Shown: piece after piece, positions 2,729 to 64,000 of the stretch
Numbering within the stretch: the stretch's first letter is position 1
Layout of the letters: each line of letters starts with the position of its first letter
Virus record (IMG/VR): IMGVR_UViG_3300029999_000002
Coordinates: 25,141 to 89,140 of that record
DNA length: 64,000 nucleotides
Strand: one strand, 5' to 3'
From: a virus
Translations under genes and position numbers: made by a program
Notes under the pieces: generated by a model
What the model was told of the DNA's origin: nothing
The model's input: the letters and a program-made list of their open reading frames with translations, nothing else
Database searches by the model: none

Positions 2729-3499
2729 ATGCTCGACCCAGAAAGCGGCATCGAGTATGGCTTTATCTACCGACTGACAAATACGGTCAATGGGAAGGTC
2801 TACATAGGGCAAACCCTGTACTCCGTGAAGAGGCGCTGGCAGGGCCATTGTCAAGTTGCTGGAAAGAATCCTAAGTGGAGATTATCCAAGGCAATTGTAA
2901 AGTATGGTGCGGAAGTCTTCAAAGTTGAAGCATTAGCTTACATACCAGGAACGTGGCTTAATCATGTTGAGACAGCCTGCATTGACATTTATGACTCGAT
3001 GAGGAATGGCTACAACATGCGCGCCGATGGTAGCAGGATCTCGCCCGATGTTCGGAAGAGGATGAGTGAAGCGCATATTGGTAGGCCCTCTAATCGCAAA
3101 GGCAAGAAGAATGATCCAGTACAGATGGAAGCCCTTAGACAATCCAATATAGGTCGGTTAGCTTCCCCAGAGACAAAAGCAAAGATGGCTGCCTCCCAAC
3201 GGGCTCGGCGTATATCTAGTCCTGAATCCTATAAGAAATCAGATGAGCAAAAGGAACGTGCGAGGGTCACCCAGACAGGAAAGAGGATGTCTGCTGAGAC
3301 TTTGGTTCGCATGAGTCTTGCAAAACTAGGTAAGACGAAGAGTGAAGAGACCAAACAGAGAATGAAGGATGCCTGGAAGCTCCGCGCTCCACGTAAGCCT
3401 ATAACGGATGAACAGAGACGCAACCTGAGTGTAGCCATTCAAGCAGCGTGGGATAGGCGAAGAGCCGCTAAGGAGATCGTCCAATGTCAATCCGTCTAG
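2729..3499 (+). CDS. GIY-YIG homing endonuclease with NUMOD3 repeats
   Basis: 256 aa. The N-terminal nuclease domain shows GFIYRLTN (residues 11-18, the GIY half) and VYIGQT (the YIG half), then the conserved Arg and Glu of the fold (W-x-x-H, then NHVETACI). The remainder is basic, with at least three NUMOD3-like repeats (S-x-E-T-K-x-K-M/R-M). These domains bind DNA in homing enzymes. It is a free-standing mobile gene between the chaperone and tape measure genes. Its last 16 bases overlap the tape measure start and carry that gene's AAGGAG ribosome site. Confidence 0.9.
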   Translation: MLDPESGIEYGFIYRLTNTVNGKVYIGQTLYSVKRRWQGHCQVAGKNPKWRLSKAIVKYGAEVFKVEALAYIPGTWLNHVETACIDIYDSMRNGYNMRADGSRISPDVRKRMSEAHIGRPSNRKGKKNDPVQMEALRQSNIGRLASPETKAKMAASQRARRISSPESYKKSDEQKERARVTQTGKRMSAETLVRMSLAKLGKTKSEETKQRMKDAWKLRAPRKPITDEQRRNLSVAIQAAWDRRRAAKEIVQCQSV

Positions 3500-26025: not shown

Positions 26026-26232
26026 ATGGCATTCAAGAAAGCAGTCTCCACATTCAGTTTGACTTCAGACTTCCAGCGTATGGCCGACACTGAGGACAAG
26101 ATCAATCGCAGAGCGACCAAAGATGCAGCCAATGCGCGCAACAAAGCAAACCAGAAGGCACTCGGAGCATGGCATGGGAGCAGCAGAGGGAAGATGAACG
26201 AGATCCCGATGCCAGCGAGGCGCACAACCTAA
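26026..26232 (+). CDS. Small basic protein, unknown
   Basis: 68 aa from ATG 26026, chosen because AGGAG lies upstream and promoter P1 would start the mRNA near 25995, after the longer open frame's first codon. It is charged and helical (DKINRRATKDAANARNKANQ). First gene of the rightward accessory unit; its stop overlaps the next ATG (TAATG). No function recognised. Confidence 0.55.
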   Translation: MAFKKAVSTFSLTSDFQRMADTEDKINRRATKDAANARNKANQKALGAWHGSSRGKMNEIPMPARRTT

Positions 26233-26405
26233 TGGCTGACATCCGGGTTGAGCTCAAGATTTGTGAAGCCTGTGGGGCGCTGGGATTGCGTCCTGTTACC
26301 AGCCTGAACGCATACTGTGCACAATGCTCTAACAAACTGGGAGCCGTTGTAACACCTGTTCACAGGACGAGCCCAGGTCGCGCGCCAAGGATGGCAGTAG
26401 CTTGA
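26232..26405 (+). CDS. Small zinc-ribbon-like protein
   Basis: 57 aa. Two CxxC pairs (CEAC at ~11-14 and CAQC at ~32-35) suggest a zinc ribbon. The ATG overlaps the preceding stop. The end overlaps the following gene by four bases, so the unit is translationally coupled. Confidence 0.6.
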   Translation: MADIRVELKICEACGALGLRPVTSLNAYCAQCSNKLGAVVTPVHRTSPGRAPRMAVA

Positions 26406-56618: not shown

Positions 56619-56935
56619 GTAACTCTCCGTCGAACCTTGTTATATTTCTTGAACTTCAGTGGGTAATTAGCGTCAGGCAACACGTCATCACCATGAGGCG
56701 AGACGATCACAATGAACTTCTTCAGGTTCTTTCCATGAACGCAGTCATGGCAGCCAGAGCAGAGGCAGACTAAGTTGCTATCTGTGTCCGGACCTTGGTC
56801 TGATCGGAACTGGATATGGTGACAGCTGATCCCAGAGCGGGAACTGCATACTCTGCACTTGTTCCCATCTCTGGTTCGTACCTTGTCCTTGAGCAGCTTC
56901 AGTTCGGCATCAGGTAGAGAGAAGCGCTTGGCCAC
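56597..56935 (-). CDS. HNH endonuclease
   Basis: 112 aa, GTG start overlapping the previous stop (TAGTG). RDGNKCRVCSSRSGISCHHI, then DTDSNLVCLCSGCHDCVHG, form a compact HNH core with two zinc CxxC pairs. Either a homing enzyme or a terminase-associated HNH. No terminase gene is nearby, which favours homing. Confidence 0.85.
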   Translation of the reverse strand: MAKRFSLPDAELKLLKDKVRTRDGNKCRVCSSRSGISCHHIQFRSDQGPDTDSNLVCLCSGCHDCVHGKNLKKFIVIVSPHGDDVLPDANYPLKFKKYNKVRRRVTWRHLLQ

Positions 56936-57747
56936 TACTGGCCGTCTGCCTCATCAACGTCGATGTCCTCTGTGTCCTCATCTTCATCATCTTCAAAGTC
57001 ATTCTCGTCGCCGTCTTCGGTCTCGTCCTGGATGTCTTCTGCTTCACCCTGCTCGTCCACTTGGTTGTTGGGGTCAGCTGCCCAGTCGCCGCACACGAGC
57101 TCCAACGCACTGGCCTTGGATAAATTCTTGGCTTCGCCTGTGAGGATGTCGAACGTCTGTCCAGCTACAGCAGAAGCTTTCTCCAGCGTGGCCTCGATCA
57201 CTTCCTTAGCGTCACGGCGCACTGGCCAGTTCCACCAAGTTAACTCTCCTGCCTTGTCTTCAACAGGTCCCTTGAGCCGTTTTACAATCTCCTTGACTTC
57301 AGCAAGGGAACGATTTGGCGCATCGATCACCAGGTTCCGCATGATGTCAGCCATTGACTCTTCCTTGAGCGTGGCAGGATCAGTGACAGTCAGCGTGTGG
57401 TCGAGACTGTAAATCTCTTTCAGCTTGCTGATGCGCGCCTTGGCGAGATCAGTCTTGGTAACAGTCAGTATCTTGGAGACGTTGCTGATCTGAACCAGGT
57501 AGTCCACTTGGCGCCGGCTGATGTCAACACCAGATGCCTTAATGTATTCAGAGAAGGACTCGAACTTCCATTCGTTCCAAAGGTTCTCTGCCTTGATGGT
57601 TGAGAACAGGTCACCGAGTTCAAAGGTGCTGAGCGTGAGCGTTGTGTCCAACTGCTGAACACGCTTCCGGATCTCGTCTGCTCTGCGACTATCCTGCTCG
57701 ATGATTGCAGCGGGGGATTCCAGTGTAATAACTAGGGGATCTTTCAA
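56935..57747 (-). CDS. Helical early protein with acidic tail, unknown
   Basis: 270 aa from TTG 57747, with AAAGGT six bases upstream. Residues ~40-90 have a KfrA/ParB-like helical look (FSEYIKASGVDISRRQVDYL). The last ~45 residues are almost all Asp and Glu, as in DNA-mimic or SSB-like tails. No family recognised. Confidence 0.55.
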   Translation of the reverse strand: MKDPLVITLESPAAIIEQDSRRADEIRKRVQQLDTTLTLSTFELGDLFSTIKAENLWNEWKFESFSEYIKASGVDISRRQVDYLVQISNVSKILTVTKTDLAKARISKLKEIYSLDHTLTVTDPATLKEESMADIMRNLVIDAPNRSLAEVKEIVKRLKGPVEDKAGELTWWNWPVRRDAKEVIEATLEKASAVAGQTFDILTGEAKNLSKASALELVCGDWAADPNNQVDEQGEAEDIQDETEDGDENDFEDDEDEDTEDIDVDEADGQ

Positions 57748-57948
57748 CTATTTACCTTTCACACTAATGGTGACTTCGTACCGACCAGCCAGGTACATGA
57801 AGAGGATGACGAGCAGAAACATCACTGTTCCGTAGAGGCTGGCAAAGACAACCGGGAAAATGGGCAGGAACCAGTAGAGGCCAAAGTACGGGTAGCCTTT
57901 CTGGAGATTGAGGACGAGGACCGTCCAGAGGTTCTTGATGGTTTTGAT
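57748..57948 (-). CDS. Two-span membrane protein overlapping the protease-like gene, non-ATG start
   Basis: 66 aa in a frame overlapping the 3' end of the upstream gene by ~127 bases. It reads IKNLWTVLVLNLQKGYPYFG, then two hydrophobic spans and a basic end. There is no ATG, GTG or TTG early in the frame; ATC 57948 has AAAGGA five bases upstream. The upstream gene's sequence over this stretch is Ser/Arg nonsense, so this frame seems to be the selected one. A shorter product from GTG 57828 is possible. Confidence 0.45.
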   Translation of the reverse strand: MKTIKNLWTVLVLNLQKGYPYFGLYWFLPIFPVVFASLYGTVMFLLVILFMYLAGRYEVTISVKGK

Positions 57949-58445
57949 GTGGTTCCTTTCAATTCAAAACTTGTGGCTCGATACGCGGCCTTGGATCGGT
58001 ACAGGATGGCTGCCCCTGTGAATGTGGCACGAGTCAGCTTCCACACCTGAGCCCTTATGTCGACAACATGGGCATCATGGAGTTCATAGCTCATGCCCAT
58101 TGGCTCAGTGTCTTCATGCTCAAGATGCCCCTTGAGTTCAGGGAAGTCCTTTGCAAACAAGTAACCTTCGACCTTCAGCTTGAACCCAGTGATCCATGCG
58201 TTAGTGATGATTCCCACTTTGCGCCTAGCATCGTGCCCATCCCATGTGACCTTCATGTCAACGCCCATACCGATCAGCGTGTGCAAGGAGGCTTCGGCTG
58301 CCTCTTTGGTCAGGATGCACCTATGCCCTCGTGCACCACTTGGGGCCAAGTCGCTAGCAGTGTCGATAACAGTGAGGACACCCTTGAAGGGCAGACGGTT
58401 CGGATGGTTCAGGTCGGCCGCAGCCTGGATGTTCCATGAGTTCAT
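57822..58445 (-). CDS. Prohead protease-like (S78-type) protein
   Basis: 207 aa from ATG 58445 (AGGA six bases upstream). VTWDGHDARRKVG (His), VEGYLFAKDFPEL and MGMSYELHD (Ser) follow the order of strand-His and G-x-S blocks in HK97-type prohead proteases; VWKLTRATFTGAAIL completes the fold. Residues after ~165 overlap the membrane gene and look non-functional. It would mature capsids, and a capsid-like gene lies 3 kb upstream in the same unit. The family call is tentative. Confidence 0.5.
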   Translation of the reverse strand: MNSWNIQAAADLNHPNRLPFKGVLTVIDTASDLAPSGARGHRCILTKEAAEASLHTLIGMGVDMKVTWDGHDARRKVGIITNAWITGFKLKVEGYLFAKDFPELKGHLEHEDTEPMGMSYELHDAHVVDIRAQVWKLTRATFTGAAILYRSKAAYRATSFELKGTTSKPSRTSGRSSSSISRKATRTLASTGSCPFSRLSLPASTEQ

Positions 58446-58469
58446 TTGGGTTCCTGTCTGGTTGTGGTC

Positions 58470-58506
58470 GGTGGCAGCCGCTCTGCATGACTCGGCAGCT
58501 GCCACC
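58470..58506 (-). other. Long stem-loop before the protease-like gene
   Basis: A perfect 9-bp inverted repeat (GGTGGCAGC at 58470-58478, GCTGCCACC at 58498-58506) with a 19-nt loop lies in the 176-base gap, about 25 bases before the ATG. No T-tract follows, so it is more likely a processing or translational control structure. The rest of the gap (58507-58621) shows nothing I can name. Confidence 0.4.
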
Positions 58507-58621
58507 TACAGCGGTTTAGTTATCCCGCTCCGGAGCCAACTTCATAACTCGGCATTGCCCAACTACCTTGGCAGTTGTGCTCGTCTAGGGAACAGGCTGA
58601 GCCGGATGGACGGATGGTTGA

Positions 58622-59446
58622 CTAGACCTCAGTGACCTCAGCGTCGATCACTTCGCCGGCATCCTCTTCCGAGACATAGGTTTCCTGTGGCTGCTCTTCC
58701 TCAACTGCGTCGGACGAAGGACGGTTTGCATAGTCGGTCACAAACTGTTTGTAGTAGGGACCAAACTTGGCGGCATCCTCAGGAGTTAGCTGGCGAATCG
58801 CAGTGAACTTGACACGATAAGCCTTCTTTGCCTTCTCGCTACTCATGGTGAGAACGTAGTCAAAAGTTGATGGCATCCTACCTGTTTTCGCCTTGACCAA
58901 TTTCGCGCGCTCACGTACCAGGTTGTAGACAACCTCGGAAGGATCTACACCCTGACCTGAAGCATCATAGATATAGGGCAGGTTCGTCTCCTGATCCAGG
59001 AACAGGAACGTGAAGCCACGGTCGCATACGGGTTTGGGTCCGGTGTTGGTCTTCTTGTCGTAGCCCTTCCAGGAAGCCTTAGGGCAGCTGGCACAATCCT
59101 TAGCCTGTGGCTCCAAGCGGTCATCGTTGGTAACAGGAGTCTTGCCATTGCGAGACCGACAAAGAACAGCCTCATTCTTCATCTTCGTGAAGTCCGGAGA
59201 GCTCGGCTTCCACTGGCGCGTCTTGCTCATGTGCAGGACGACCATGTTGATTTCTTTCCACGTCTGCCCCGATGCACGATGGAAAAACGTCCCGTTAGGA
59301 ACGTCATCCATACCTTCAGTAAGTTCCTGCTTCAACTGAATGTACTGAGGGCGAACTTCATCATCACCCCAGTTGCCATTGTCCTCAACCTCAGCGATCT
59401 GAGTGTTGTTATTCAAAACTGTGAGTCCTGTTTCCTCTGCTGCCAT
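58622..59446 (-). CDS. Cys-rich phage protein, possible ssDNA-binding/recombination
   Basis: 274 aa. Cys cluster (VLCRSRNG, CASCPKASW, KPVCDRG, about 95-145) suits a zinc site found in a phage family often encoded with RecB-like nucleases. The acidic C-terminus (VSEEDAGEVIDAEVTEV) resembles SSB tails. It lies downstream of the PD-(D/E)xK nuclease gene, so a recombination-partner role is plausible but unproven. Confidence 0.6.
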   Translation of the reverse strand: MAAEETGLTVLNNNTQIAEVEDNGNWGDDEVRPQYIQLKQELTEGMDDVPNGTFFHRASGQTWKEINMVVLHMSKTRQWKPSSPDFTKMKNEAVLCRSRNGKTPVTNDDRLEPQAKDCASCPKASWKGYDKKTNTGPKPVCDRGFTFLFLDQETNLPYIYDASGQGVDPSEVVYNLVRERAKLVKAKTGRMPSTFDYVLTMSSEKAKKAYRVKFTAIRQLTPEDAAKFGPYYKQFVTDYANRPSSDAVEEEQPQETYVSEEDAGEVIDAEVTEV

Positions 59447-59491
59447 AAATGGTGATGCCTTTCAGTGATTGTTTTGTGCCCTGTATAGCTC

Positions 59492-59668
59492 TTAGGAGGC
59501 AGAGTTGGGTGCGAGACGGATGATCTGTGTATACGATCCGGAAGTGAAGATTGCGGCCGTGTTCCCTGTTGTGTCAGTGAAGACTGCACTGCCTGCATTA
59601 AGGGTTACATTGGTTGCAATGACATCCAGGATGGAGCCGTTTGCAAGGGTGATTTTGAATGTGTTCAT
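59492..59668 (-). CDS. Small beta-rich protein, unknown
   Basis: 58 aa from ATG 59668, with AAAGGA upstream. Thr/Ala/Asn-rich strands (FKITLANGSILDVIATNVTL). Small beta proteins of this type may be capsid decoration proteins, which would fit the capsid-like gene upstream, but this is inference. Confidence 0.5.
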   Translation of the reverse strand: MNTFKITLANGSILDVIATNVTLNAGSAVFTDTTGNTAAIFTSGSYTQIIRLAPNSAS

Positions 59669-59676
59669 GCTGTCCT

Positions 59677-60954
59677 TTAGAGTTTGAGCTCCCATTCCAC
59701 TTGGAAGGGTTCTTCAATTGGTGCTATTGTGGGTTCAGTTGGGGCAGATGCGCGAAGATTGCCCATCATCTCGTCTACAATTTCATCTGCGATCTCGGCA
59801 GCAGTCTTCTCGACCTTTGGATACGCCAGAGCCTTAGCCTCGTCCACAGGCACACCATCTGCTCTCAGTTGCTTATAGTGGGCCTTCTGAGCCTCATTGC
59901 GGGCCTTTGTGGCCAGCTTGGACGCTTCCCTGTTCGCAATGCTGGTTGCTTTGGCTTCAGCCTTGAGAACAGCCTTGGCTTCGTCTCTAATAGCTTTGCC
60001 AATCGCCTTGCGCTTAGCCTTGTCCACTCGGATGGACTCCTCTACATCCTTCATACGTCGGTAGAGGTTGAGGGCAGCCAAGAACGCTTCCAGTTCCATT
60101 TCGAAGGTGTTCGGGGACCGATGGAGAGAGGTTAGTTTGCCCGTCTCCTTGTCCAGCTTAAGCACCCAGGTATCCGTGACTGGCTCACCTGTTTCCTCGA
60201 TGTAACAAAACCTATAGATCGCGGTCTGCAGGATGTACGTGGTTCTCATACTTCGGCTGGTTTTCCAGTCTATGAACGCCAACCTGTCAACATACTCTTC
60301 AGAGCAGCAACTAGGATCATCACAACTTGATACCCATGCGAGTCCGTCGCCAGTTCCGGCCACGTCATACTCTCTTGAGTACACCTTGCGTTCAGTGAAG
60401 ATGAACCGAACCTTGTGCTTCTGTGTCCACTCGAACGCTGCGCCAGTGCTGTTCTTTACTCGCTCATCTGTTGGTGGGAAGTCTAGAGGCTGGAGAACAC
60501 CGTTGTTGTTCTTGATGGCCAGCTTGATCTGCTCTTCTAGAATGCCGTGGACAATGTGTCCTACATCACCAGCCTCTTCCAGTTCCTGACTGTGCTTTGT
60601 TCGCGCGTCATTCAGGAGCCAGTTGAGATCCTCTGTGGACAATTCCTTTCGAGAGCCATCTGCGTTGTGCAGGCCGGCCTGAATCGTCATGATTGCCAGC
60701 TTGACTGCCCACAGCATCAGGGGCTTGCTCTTGTCGATGATCTGAAGAACAGTTGTGACACCAGGAATCTCTACCCTGTTCCCATCTGCATCAAACCTGT
60801 AATAGGCATGGGCAGAGTCATCGTAGTACAGAGTCACTTCGCCTTCAGGAGAGTCTTTGTAAAAGGAGTAGCTTGTTACCTGTGGTGCAACATCTTCCGA
60901 GTCCCAATTATCATCAGTCTCGGGTTTCATCCAATCCGGTAGAGGTGCTACCAT
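59677..60954 (-). CDS. RecB-like PD-(D/E)xK exonuclease
   Basis: 425 aa. VTTVLQIIDKSKPL and GDVGHIVHGILEEQI open the fold; REYDVAGTGDGLAW, then FIDWKTSRS (the D...D-x-K active site) and YILQTAIYRFCY (Q-x-x-x-Y motif) complete a RecB/Cas4-type nuclease. Cys pairs (CDDPSCC) lie between. A long Ala/Lys helix (about 300-380) follows. Works in phage recombination or DNA processing. Confidence 0.85.
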   Translation of the reverse strand: MVAPLPDWMKPETDDNWDSEDVAPQVTSYSFYKDSPEGEVTLYYDDSAHAYYRFDADGNRVEIPGVTTVLQIIDKSKPLMLWAVKLAIMTIQAGLHNADGSRKELSTEDLNWLLNDARTKHSQELEEAGDVGHIVHGILEEQIKLAIKNNNGVLQPLDFPPTDERVKNSTGAAFEWTQKHKVRFIFTERKVYSREYDVAGTGDGLAWVSSCDDPSCCSEEYVDRLAFIDWKTSRSMRTTYILQTAIYRFCYIEETGEPVTDTWVLKLDKETGKLTSLHRSPNTFEMELEAFLAALNLYRRMKDVEESIRVDKAKRKAIGKAIRDEAKAVLKAEAKATSIANREASKLATKARNEAQKAHYKQLRADGVPVDEAKALAYPKVEKTAAEIADEIVDEMMGNLRASAPTEPTIAPIEEPFQVEWELKL

Positions 60955-61335
60955 CTACTGATCTCCATCAAGAAGCTTGAGCAGGCGTGCAGCGAGTTGC
61001 TCATTGGTCTCATCCAGAGGCGCTGTCTCAATTGCAAAGAGCACCTCTGCTACTCTGGGATCAACTGGCTTCGGGATGAGAGCAGCGTTTCGCGCAGTGA
61101 TGAACTCCTTCAGTGCCACTCGTGTGCTCTCTTTGCAGTTACCTGGATCTGCATAATAGGTGAGGTTGAACCGTTCGGTCTCTTCTTCAGTTGGATCAGC
61201 CTGTGGAAGCTGCAGGAAGGGAGCAGCTGCCCTCAGTGCTGCCATCCGCTTGACATCGGTATCACCTGAGTTCGTGGCCCAGAACGTCGTATAGTAGACA
61301 CCGGCTGCCTTCTCCAATTGCTCATCTGTGAACAT
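60955..61335 (-). CDS. Unknown early protein
   Basis: 126 aa, helical, acidic (PTEEETERFNLTYY). It abuts the nuclease gene. No family recognised. Confidence 0.5.
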   Translation of the reverse strand: MFTDEQLEKAAGVYYTTFWATNSGDTDVKRMAALRAAAPFLQLPQADPTEEETERFNLTYYADPGNCKESTRVALKEFITARNAALIPKPVDPRVAEVLFAIETAPLDETNEQLAARLLKLLDGDQ

Positions 61336-61337
61336 AT

Positions 61338-61613
61338 CTATTTGCCAATCACCAAAACATCCGTGACCTTTCTCTCGATTTCAATAATTTCAAAAATGGA
61401 TAACACTGGAACCACACCCAAACCTGAATCCACAAATCTCTCCCTGCTCACAGCCAGGTACTCCCTGACCACAGTGGGCACATATTCCCTAACCTGTTCC
61501 TCATCACGAGCCACCAGGTTTGCAGACAGGATTACGCTCGACTTGGGTCCAGTTTGGGAACCTTTGTCCAGGGTGTAGACAATTTTGAAACTGGCTAGGT
61601 ACAGGTTCCTCAC
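61338..61613 (-). CDS. Small beta/alpha protein after the capsid-like gene
   Basis: 91 aa, GTG start overlapping the capsid-like gene's stop (TAGTG), so probably co-translated. Central Val/Glu-rich strands. No family recognised. Confidence 0.5.
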   Translation of the reverse strand: MRNLYLASFKIVYTLDKGSQTGPKSSVILSANLVARDEEQVREYVPTVVREYLAVSRERFVDSGLGVVPVLSIFEIIEIERKVTDVLVIGK

Positions 61614-62506
61614 TAGCGATCCACCAGAACCTGACAGTGCGCATAGTCTGCATTCTTGACGACAATCGCGCCGAACTTCACAACGGTGTACGAACTGGCT
61701 CCTGCTCCAAATGTTCCAGATTGGAACACGCGAGGATTCGGATCACTTAACCAGTGATACTCAATTAGGTCCTCAGTCACGATGTAGGCAGGCAACACCG
61801 CTGAACCCGAACCTGGAACACCTGTATAGGGCAGTGTCCATTCTGGGATCAGTGGCAGAAACCCTGCTTGTGTGCTGAGCACCTTGACCACAGCACCATT
61901 CTCAATGGTCTTCGTACCCAGAGCCACATTGAAGTCAGACTTGAGTTCGCGGTCGAGCAGATCCAGCAGCACAGGGTTCGCATAGATAGCAGTCGGCCGT
62001 GCGCCAGTGGCTACCATCTTGGCAACAGCGTCCTTCAGCCCATCCACGATGCTGAACCCAGCACCGATATTCATGCTGTTCCCTGCTGCGATCTGGTCTG
62101 CCACACCGAAATACTGGTTGGTAGTCGGTGCGCTCAGGCTGGTATCAGTACCGTTCCAGAGGGCAACATCATGGGTCCGGAGAACGCCATCCACGGTATC
62201 AGTGAGGTCTCTGGCTTGCAGGTATGTGAACTGGGCCTGTTGCTTACCGAGTTCAAGATCGAATAGGTTGTAGTTGATCTCTGCGACCAGAGCCTTCAGA
62301 GGGACAGACTTCTCAACTCGCCCACGGGCAGCCTGTTCAAAGTAGCGACTCGGGTGCCCAGTGGCGGGAACTTGTTTTATTCTCTGCCCAAAGAGTCCAC
62401 GCCGGCGAACCAGGTCGGTGATCTCTGACTGGTAGATGGGAACCTCTATTGCTCCGGGTCCGATGTAATCCGCAGCTTGATGGATGTCTACAAACTTTGC
62501 GTTCAA
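61613..62506 (-). CDS. HK97-fold major capsid-like protein
   Basis: 297 aa, TTG start. The C-terminal half has TAIYANPVLLDLLDRELK, then strand-rich GAVVKVLSTQAGFLPLIPEW and IEYHWL...PNPRVFQSGTFG, ending SYTVVKFGAIVVKNADYAHC, the form of HK97-fold capsid proteins. It is the first gene behind the strong promoter P5, with a ~210-base leader. Its place on the early strand, away from the head-tail genes at the left edge, is unusual. A non-capsid role or a second capsid protein cannot be excluded. Confidence 0.6.
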   Translation of the reverse strand: MNAKFVDIHQAADYIGPGAIEVPIYQSEITDLVRRRGLFGQRIKQVPATGHPSRYFEQAARGRVEKSVPLKALVAEINYNLFDLELGKQQAQFTYLQARDLTDTVDGVLRTHDVALWNGTDTSLSAPTTNQYFGVADQIAAGNSMNIGAGFSIVDGLKDAVAKMVATGARPTAIYANPVLLDLLDRELKSDFNVALGTKTIENGAVVKVLSTQAGFLPLIPEWTLPYTGVPGSGSAVLPAYIVTEDLIEYHWLSDPNPRVFQSGTFGAGASSYTVVKFGAIVVKNADYAHCQVLVDR

Positions 62507-62630: not shown

Positions 62631-62725
62631 TATATCACATGCAGTGCTGACTTCCACTGAGACCCATTGGGCCATTTTGTCAGAGCAAGGGAACCTGGAA
62701 GAACCCTTTCCAACTGTCAGACTTT

Positions 62726-62771
62726 AGTTTACTAAACCTGCAGGCCCATGTCAAGGTTTATTTTGCTGTAT
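62726..62771 (-). promoter_or_regulatory. Phage promoter P5
   Basis: Read on the - strand: ATACAG (62771-62766), 11 bases, TTGACA (62754-62749), 17 bases, TAAACT (62731-62726). It lies immediately after the stop of the 62774-63046 gene and shares AGCTATACAG and ACCTTGACA blocks with P4. It drives the long 62506-45964 unit. Confidence 0.85.
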
Positions 62772-63068: not shown

Positions 63069-64000
63069 TTACTGTCTAGCGCCAATGGATGGCGGTACCG
63101 AGTATAAAGCCCCTGTATAGTCCGTAACCAAGCCTGGGATCGAGATGCCGGCGCCCAGAAGCGGACTGGTTGCAGACGGCGTGAATGAGTTTGGAGTGAT
63201 GAACGGATTGAACCCATCTAAGTCAGCCTCTTCACCGGGCCATGGCTGCACAGGTTCATTCTGCAACAGTGGGTCCTCGCAGAGCATACTGTTGGTAGTC
63301 GATGGGCAGCTTCCACCCTTCATTCCATACTCCAGGTTGTGTGATGCGTTCAGGACGATGCCAGGAGACAGGTAGTAGAGATCAGGTGCGTTACCAGCCC
63401 CATACGGATTGTTTGGATCTGTGTACCCAAGGAACAAGTTGTTGGTTGAGTTCACTGTTGAGGGGCATGTTGCATCTGCCCCGTTGCAGGCGATGTACAG
63501 AGCTATCTGTTGCGCCGATATGAACGTGTTGTTGATCAGGTTCCAGGTTGAGCCAATTGGGATCACACTGGCCATCCCATTGCCACCAGCCCTGCAGAAC
63601 CCCGTCAGGTACTGATTGTAAGTAGCCGGCACACCTGTCATCGGCTGACTCATTCGAGTGCAGTTGAACACTGACAGGTTGTTCTCAAATGTGGTCGTGT
63701 TGACTACAGAGTCGTCACCACCCCACTTCCAGTTTGAGCCCATGTTGCCGATAGCCACCGAGTTGGTGATGATGATGTTCGCCGTTTCCACGTGTGGCCC
63801 GATGAACCCATCCTTGGTGTTGTAGTCGTCCACGCAATAGTTGCAGGTAAACGAGGCGAGTGGGGTGTTCTGGCCGCTCCAGGAGTCACCAAAGCCTGCA
63901 GAGTTAGTGTCATAACAGACTTGCGCGGGATAGATCGCCGTGATGGGATACTGCTCATAGCAACCGTTGAAGATCATCGTGACGTATTGTGCGTTGACAC
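63069..64000 (-). CDS. Beta-helix protein, N-terminus beyond the right edge
   Basis: At least 310 aa visible; the frame is still open at the window end. Asn/Thr-rich repeats with paired hydrophobics (ANIIITNSVAIGNMGSNW, LINNTFISAQQIALYIAC) form a right-handed beta-helix, and the end has SPLLGAGISIPGLVTDYTG followed by IGARQ, the usual cap of secreted beta-helix proteins. Probably another spike, adhesin or polysaccharide lyase. It is on the early strand, unlike the other three. Confidence 0.65.
   Translation of the reverse strand, partial: VNAQYVTMIFNGCYEQYPITAIYPAQVCYDTNSAGFGDSWSGQNTPLASFTCNYCVDDYNTKDGFIGPHVETANIIITNSVAIGNMGSNWKWGGDDSVVNTTTFENNLSVFNCTRMSQPMTGVPATYNQYLTGFCRAGGNGMASVIPIGSTWNLINNTFISAQQIALYIACNGADATCPSTVNSTNNLFLGYTDPNNPYGAGNAPDLYYLSPGIVLNASHNLEYGMKGGSCPSTTNSMLCEDPLLQNEPVQPWPGEEADLDGFNPFITPNSFTPSATSPLLGAGISIPGLVTDYTGALYSVPPSIGARQ

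Follow-up and report, generated by a model that had tools for sequence, protein, structure and literature searches.

Phage-borne capsid and prohead protease genes related to those of a putative gene transfer agent of Acidobacteriaceae

Genes on the early strand

The window, the whole stretch of DNA analysed here (64,000 nucleotides), comprises bases 25141-89140 of an 89,140-base IMG/VR record of a soil phage (IMGVR_UViG_3300029999_000002), and the left part of the record was examined as well. Near the right end of the window, the minus strand carries, in this order, the genes for MCP2 (a capsid protein with a predicted HK97 fold), a 91-aa and a 126-aa protein, an exonuclease, a 67-aa and a 274-aa protein, a protease and a 270-aa protein (Table 1). 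Farther along the strand lie genes for a helicase, a primase/helicase, a ligase, a UvsX-like recombinase, a methyltransferase and ribonucleotide reductase, and a DNA polymerase gene lies at the record's left end. We infer that this strand is early because the replication genes are on it. The exonuclease appears to be PD-(D/E)XK/RecB-like, and the 274-aa product is probably a single-strand binding or annealing protein. A sequence-only reading of this DNA had noticed an HK97-fold-like gene on the early strand and a protease-like gene about 3 kb farther among recombination genes. Both are present, separated by a 3.1-kb gap with the exonuclease gene inside. The same reading placed MCP2 behind the strongest promoter of the strand. 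The candidate promoter, which lies 220 nt 5' of MCP2 with its -10 element within the near-palindrome TTTAGTAAACTAAA (62723-62736), is the best of four such sites, although four is also the number expected by chance. Upstream of MCP2 on the same strand, a gene for a beta-helix-like protein (window 63069-64000) is truncated by the record's right end.

Table 1. Features of the window and of the related bacterial locus (window coordinates unless another sequence is named)
Feature	Position	Strand	Remarks
Candidate promoter	62726..62754	-	TTGACA-17-TAAACT; consensus match only, 10/12
MCP2 (HK97-fold capsid protein, Acidobacteriaceae host-locus type)	61613..62506	-	297 aa, TTG start
Site of the 22-residue deletion (E-loop tip)	62321..62335	-	Relative to the other 67 aligned relatives
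91-aa gene	61338..61613	-	No family match; stop codon of MCP2 and GTG start overlap (TAGTG)
126-aa gene	60955..61335	-	No family match; stop abuts the exonuclease ATG (TAGATG)
Phage exonuclease, backbone gene	59677..60954	-	phrog_298, 8.2e-27; 41-44% identity in the sister record
274-aa backbone gene adjoining the exonuclease	58622..59446	-	38% identity, same order in the sister
Host-locus-type prohead protease	57822..58505	-	Homology and predicted assemblin/gp21 fold
270-aa backbone gene	56935..57747	-	phrog_17202, 1.8e-7; 48% identity in the sister record
Zinc-ribbon protein, 78 aa	26169..26405	+	38-46% identity, E to 5e-10, mostly host loci
Host locus, Edaphobacter modestus	G001:C1 about 3,741,800-3,759,100		About 40 further genome loci

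The head module of the phage

The phage has a head module of its own at record bases 15.2-25 kb on the plus strand, left of the window. It consists of genes for an HNH protein, TerS, TerL (phrog_9, 9e-150), the portal (5e-99), a protease/ClpP fusion (2e-85) and an HK97-type capsid protein (2e-69), followed by connectors. The sequence-only reading had asked whether another capsid gene lies left of the window, and this capsid gene answers the question. It had also considered that the head module might be split across the strands; this is not the case, as TerS, TerL, portal, protease and capsid genes are all together. No similarity could be detected between MCP2 and the capsid of this module, or between the early-strand protease and the protease of the module. 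Since the own module is complete, MCP2 and the early-strand protease are extra. Two further observations concern this region. GIY-YIG-like endonuclease genes are located within the head-tail module (L003:8140-9081 and window 2729-3499, plus strand). Contigs L113 and L114 carry relatives of the phage's own TerL gene (75% in the best segment) in which the match spans about 600 extra bases, suggesting that these TerL genes contain an intron or intein.

MCP2 and the protease

MCP2 is 66-81% identical over its full length to capsid proteins encoded in a head-tail gene cluster of Acidobacteriaceae chromosomes, hereafter the host locus. The host-locus copies have 322-323 aa, as compared with the 297 aa of MCP2. 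Of 112 residues that are invariant in the host copies, the window MCP2 has retained 110. In the tree it falls within the Granulicella-type capsids, with 81% identity to that of G. rosea (support 89/90). Its relatives were found in 25 contigs of IMG/VR and in at least 169 of bacterial origin, and among the best 80 relatives the named records belong to Acidobacteriaceae or, more broadly, Acidobacteriota. No MCP2 relative was found in 50,697 phage records by megablast and tblastn, and neither MCP2 nor the protease was recognised by Pfam or PHROGs. An AlphaFold model of MCP2, built on an alignment of 68 relatives, reached a pLDDT of 72. Foldseek matched it to encapsulins (E 1e-10) and HK97 gp5 (E 4e-9) with a probability of 1.00, that is, to the fold characterised by an N-arm, E-loop, spine helix and A and P domains, of which the E-loop is shortened in MCP2. 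Since this model is only moderately confident, the case for a capsid protein rests more on the homology to head-module capsids.

The true start of the protease is probably the ATG at 58445. The protein is 46-62% identical to the proteases of host loci, and about 45 residues at its C-terminus are without homology. Its AlphaFold model (pLDDT 88, alignment of 64 relatives) matched herpesvirus assemblin (E 1e-3) and T4 gp21 (E 5e-3, TM 0.56) with a Foldseek probability of 1.00. The expected catalytic residues, His and Ser, do not vary among the 67 protease sequences compared. The assemblin-like fold and these conserved residues together characterise a prohead protease, and the predicted activity is proteolysis of scaffold or capsid. 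Structure prediction of both proteins, proposed in the sequence-only reading, thus gave the expected folds (HK97 and assemblin/T4 gp21). The protease groups with the host-locus proteases and not with those of the true phage cousins, in which the protease is fused to the scaffold and the capsid is about 45% identical, although an AU test did not reject its placement with the phage-cousin proteases (p 0.13). Single-sequence scans with the protease, the exonuclease and the 58622-59446 gene found no IMG/VR relatives, and the IMG/VR relatives of the protease were found by alignment-based searches.

From these homologies, an origin of both genes from the host-locus type is well supported. Their codon composition is that of the phage: GC3 is 0.58 in MCP2 and 0.61 in the protease, within the range of the phage genes checked (0.53-0.66), while the host copies have 0.66-0.95. 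The dN/dS between the window MCP2 and the nearest host copy was saturated. The host copies of the capsid gene have portal, terminase, protease and scaffold genes nearby, whereas the window MCP2 has the protease alone of the head-module genes, 3 kb off and among recombination genes.

The host locus in Acidobacteriaceae

The host module contains genes for protease, scaffold, capsid, connectors, tail proteins, TerL, a HipA-like protein, a DUF3037 protein and the portal. In Edaphobacter modestus (L039), the cluster is about 16 kb long, is flanked by chromosomal genes and is headed by a sigma-70-like gene and a zinc-ribbon gene. Gene order varies among genera, the portal and terminase genes being 5' or 3' of the capsid gene; the protease and scaffold genes adjoin the capsid gene in 41 of 41 full-length host loci. 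Above the cut-off, Pfam matched none of the host-locus capsid, protease, scaffold and connector proteins. The host-type capsid is present in 149 of 250 sampled Acidobacteriaceae genomes, in single copy in 147 of these, and a search of 247 genomes across the phylum gave 24 hits, all in genomes of the family sample. For 22 genomes, the capsid tree was compared with that of rpoB. The Mantel r was 0.79 (reached in 0 of 5000 permutations), 8 of 19 splits were in common against 0.16 expected, and the mean divergences of capsid and rpoB were equal (0.32 and 0.30). No tyrosine integrase was found within 90 kb of the host locus in six isolates. The locus is thus a head-tail cluster that is inherited vertically, occurs in single copy and has no integration genes, as is characteristic of gene transfer agents (GTAs). 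Because of the single copy, the congruence with rpoB and the lack of an integrase, it looks domesticated and GTA-like, that is, like a putative GTA derived from a prophage. We found no experiment on particles or DNA transfer from this locus in the literature searched.

Single genes of the host locus in phages

When models of 15 host-locus families were run against the window record, only the capsid (1e-157) and the protease (1e-74) were found; no scaffold, portal, terminase or connectors of host-locus type are present in the record. The sequence-only reading had proposed an extra capsid-like particle or protein made early. As far as the sequence goes, the extra early protein stands, but an extra particle does not follow from it, as the scaffold, portal, terminase and connectors of MCP2's module are absent. 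The zinc-ribbon gene at 26169-26405 is a possible third gene of host-locus type and a possible regulator homologue, and its counterpart in the host locus adjoins the sigma-70-like gene.

A related phage (hereafter the sister; record of 94,594 bases) has the early operon in the same gene order, with identities of 41% for the exonuclease, 38% and 48% for the homologues of the 274-aa and 270-aa proteins, 47% for the HNH protein and 49% for the helicase. In the sister, the 270-aa homologue directly follows the 274-aa homologue, with no protease between them, and MCP2 is absent before the exonuclease and was found nowhere in its record. The sister's own host-type protease gene is located elsewhere and overlaps an RNase H gene. 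Since the common backbone is without them there, both MCP2 and the protease look like insertions in it. This bears on the possibility that the record is an assembly chimera in which an Acidobacteriaceae contig was joined to the phage at the right end, where MCP2 lies 1.5 kb from the end and the beta-helix-like gene is cut. An insertion in a common early operon argues against such an error, as the protease gene sits exactly between two genes that are adjacent in the sister. Furthermore, genes of the operon overlap or abut, GC3 of both genes matches the phage and not the host copies, the closest host copies found are only about 81% (MCP2) and 61% (protease) identical, and another phage group has a capsid copy in three contigs. 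We therefore regard a chimera as barely credible.

That other capsid copy belongs to one virus represented by contigs of 214, 124 and 74 kb. In the 214,300-base record, the lone capsid gene (L016:10001-10969) has ThyX, polynucleotide kinase, CCA-tRNA nucleotidyltransferase and RNA ligase genes as neighbours and encodes a protein with a rewritten, variable E-loop. This phage has its own TerL, portal and capsid genes about 40 kb away, and the 15 family models found only the capsid in it. The dN/dS of the lone capsid gene is 0.18, indicating purifying selection. A lone host-type protease occurs in about 19 Acidobacteria-associated viral contigs of IMG/VR (L187-L210 in part, L225), and none of the 19 has lost the catalytic His or Ser. 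In one group of contigs the gene is upstream of the terminase gene, in another it is between the tape-measure and tail genes, and others are in large phages. Lone proteases and lone capsids mostly occur apart from each other, so that the two do not form a fixed unit. Of the lone-protease records, just one, that of a 118.9-kb phage, matched the capsid model as well; it was rejected as a further case of a lone capsid as the capsid belongs to its own related head module. A phage cousin (G259:C1:4513-5487 and L225:9995) was observed to have its own head module of MCP2 type and a separate lone host-type protease. By parsimony, several gains are needed, at least 3 of them forced by well-supported branches. 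AU tests of one origin gave p values of 0.38 for the capsids, 0.31 for the window and sister proteases and 0.10 for all lone proteases. These are compatible with a single origin followed by phage-to-phage spread, and we therefore do not claim independent captures.

Changes in the E-loop

In the window MCP2, 22 residues are absent at one place, which is unique among the 68 aligned sequences. In the model, the deletion falls between strands 53-59 and 62-68, preceding the spine helix, and the deleted stretch would be the tip of the hairpin before this helix, the E-loop in HK97 terms. In the capsid of the 214-kb phage, the E-loop is 18% identical to that of G. rosea and the remainder 78%. Two variants of this phage are 78% identical in the E-loop and 97% in the remainder, and host copies compared with each other are 86% and 84% identical, respectively. 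Both phage-borne capsids are thus altered in the E-loop and far less elsewhere, which makes the E-loop the most specific clue to function. In HK97-type shells, E-loops contact neighbouring subunits.

Possible functions of the captured genes

Maturation proteases act on scaffold and capsid once assembly is done. A GTA packages DNA and lyses the cell, and a virulent phage could gain from stopping the GTA of its host. Our best explanation, to which we give about an even chance, is that MCP2 and the protease are structural genes of host GTA type that were captured and are expressed early, and that they interfere with the host particle. The genes would have been captured from the domesticated prophage of the host or handed on by another phage. 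MCP2, made early, may join or compete with the host capsid through its conserved body; lacking a proper E-loop, it could not form the contacts between subunits, and host shells would be poisoned. The free protease may cleave the scaffold or capsid of the host element while its particles are still being assembled. The joint effect would be that, during infection, the host builds no particles and perhaps does not lyse either. Every step past capture and retention under selection is inferred. In favour of this explanation are the single-copy, rpoB-congruent host locus with no integrase nearby, the precedent of an early phage gene that blocks a host GTA (TgrL, see below), the nesting among host types together with phage-like codon composition, the invariant and catalytic residues, the operon shared with recombination genes, the absence of the rest of the module, the complete own head module, the recurrence in other phages, the change focused on the E-loop and the dN/dS of 0.18. 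Against it, the pair is no fixed unit, and in two groups of contigs the protease gene is by terminase or tail genes, outside the early region; moreover, the effect of E-loop loss on co-assembly is an expectation.

The genes might instead be passengers of host-locus origin, morons or leftovers of recombination that have no present role. Host DNA is picked up by phage recombination systems, long branches lead to the phage copies, and the genes occupy different positions from phage to phage, the window phage and its sister included. We nevertheless consider this unlikely, as 110 of 112 invariant residues are retained in the window MCP2, the copy in the other phage is under purifying selection, all 19 lone proteases keep their catalytic residues, codon composition is phage-like, MCP2 is first in an operon of overlapping genes, and change is concentrated in one loop. 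Less probable than mere passengers is that the two proteins build something for the phage itself, a small shell or a minor component such as an encapsulin-like compartment or a vertex protein, used early or present in the virion. Encapsulins are the best structural matches of MCP2 and their shells need no scaffold, portal or terminase, and a shortened E-loop could suit a different geometry. Such a shell is disfavoured by the 66-81% identity to portal-associated capsids with none to the phage's own capsid, by the other phages that have just one of the two genes, and by the lack of an identified cargo gene; the 91-aa and 126-aa genes flanking MCP2 had no family match. Slightly more doubtful again is that the phage exploits the host element, with MCP2 or the protease aiding particle assembly or packaging to its benefit. 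The intact core of MCP2 and active site of the protease would allow this, but the change in the E-loop is expected to disturb assembly, a genome of 89 or 214 kb is too big for a GTA-size particle except as fragments, and a phage with its own head genes has no obvious gain from it.

Going further along the line of interference, we tentatively propose, and think rather less probable than the interference itself, that Acidobacteriaceae phages have turned capsid parts of the host's GTA type into particle-poisoning weapons. A capsid subunit altered in its E-loop and a maturation protease acting freely would be made early to halt host particle assembly and lysis, and an arms race would centre on the capsid E-loop.

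Relation to known systems

Like RcGTA of Rhodobacter and the Caulobacter GTA, the Acidobacteriaceae locus is single-copy and vertically inherited and, as in RcGTA, it is about 16 kb long and without an integrase. It differs from them in gene content, and it is known here from its genes alone. Members of the host locus have been listed as acidobacterial prophage Cluster 153 by Eichorst et al. 2018 (PMC5900883), where the KBS 89 member (scaffold00005, 60-90 kb) coincides with our locus L051. That paper, in the parts consulted, treats the prophages of six genomes and gives none for KBS 146, which nevertheless carries locus L042; these parts make no mention of family-wide single-copy inheritance, a GTA-like nature or single-gene copies in phages. 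Until now, the locus has been recorded only as a prophage cluster.

An early gene of phage phiCbK, TgrL, represses gafYZ and blocks production of the Caulobacter GTA (PMC10688885). MCP2 and the protease, as we propose them, would likewise be early genes of a virulent phage, of host type and directed against the host GTA, and by analogy with TgrL they may lower its production. The action of TgrL, a transcription factor, is backed by experiments, whereas MCP2 and the protease are altered structural parts whose blocking action is conjectural. RcGTA genes 12-15 have homologues in the roseophages RDJLphi1 and DSS3phi8 and in phiCbK, which fall outside the group of the host's copies (PMC4961962, PMC3556154). 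These are also phage homologues of GTA structural genes; in contrast, MCP2 and the protease are head genes located outside any head module, and they nest with host-locus copies. MCP2 has the HK97 fold in common with encapsulins and HK97 gp5; unlike these, its family is part of a portal-associated head module, and it has no Pfam or PHROGs sequence match to either. The literature searched gave no case of a phage genome in which head genes of a host GTA-like element stand alone and are altered in a loop.

Our results indicate a family-wide GTA-like element in Acidobacteriaceae, which are common soil bacteria, and phages repeatedly carry single head genes of it. This suggests that phages use these parts against the bacterial particle or take them from it. 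If the proposed function is true, it would be a phage counter-measure to a host GTA that acts via structural proteins and not via transcription. The system may also help to test why hosts retain elements of this kind, since altered phage copies would be unexpected unless the particle matters during infection.
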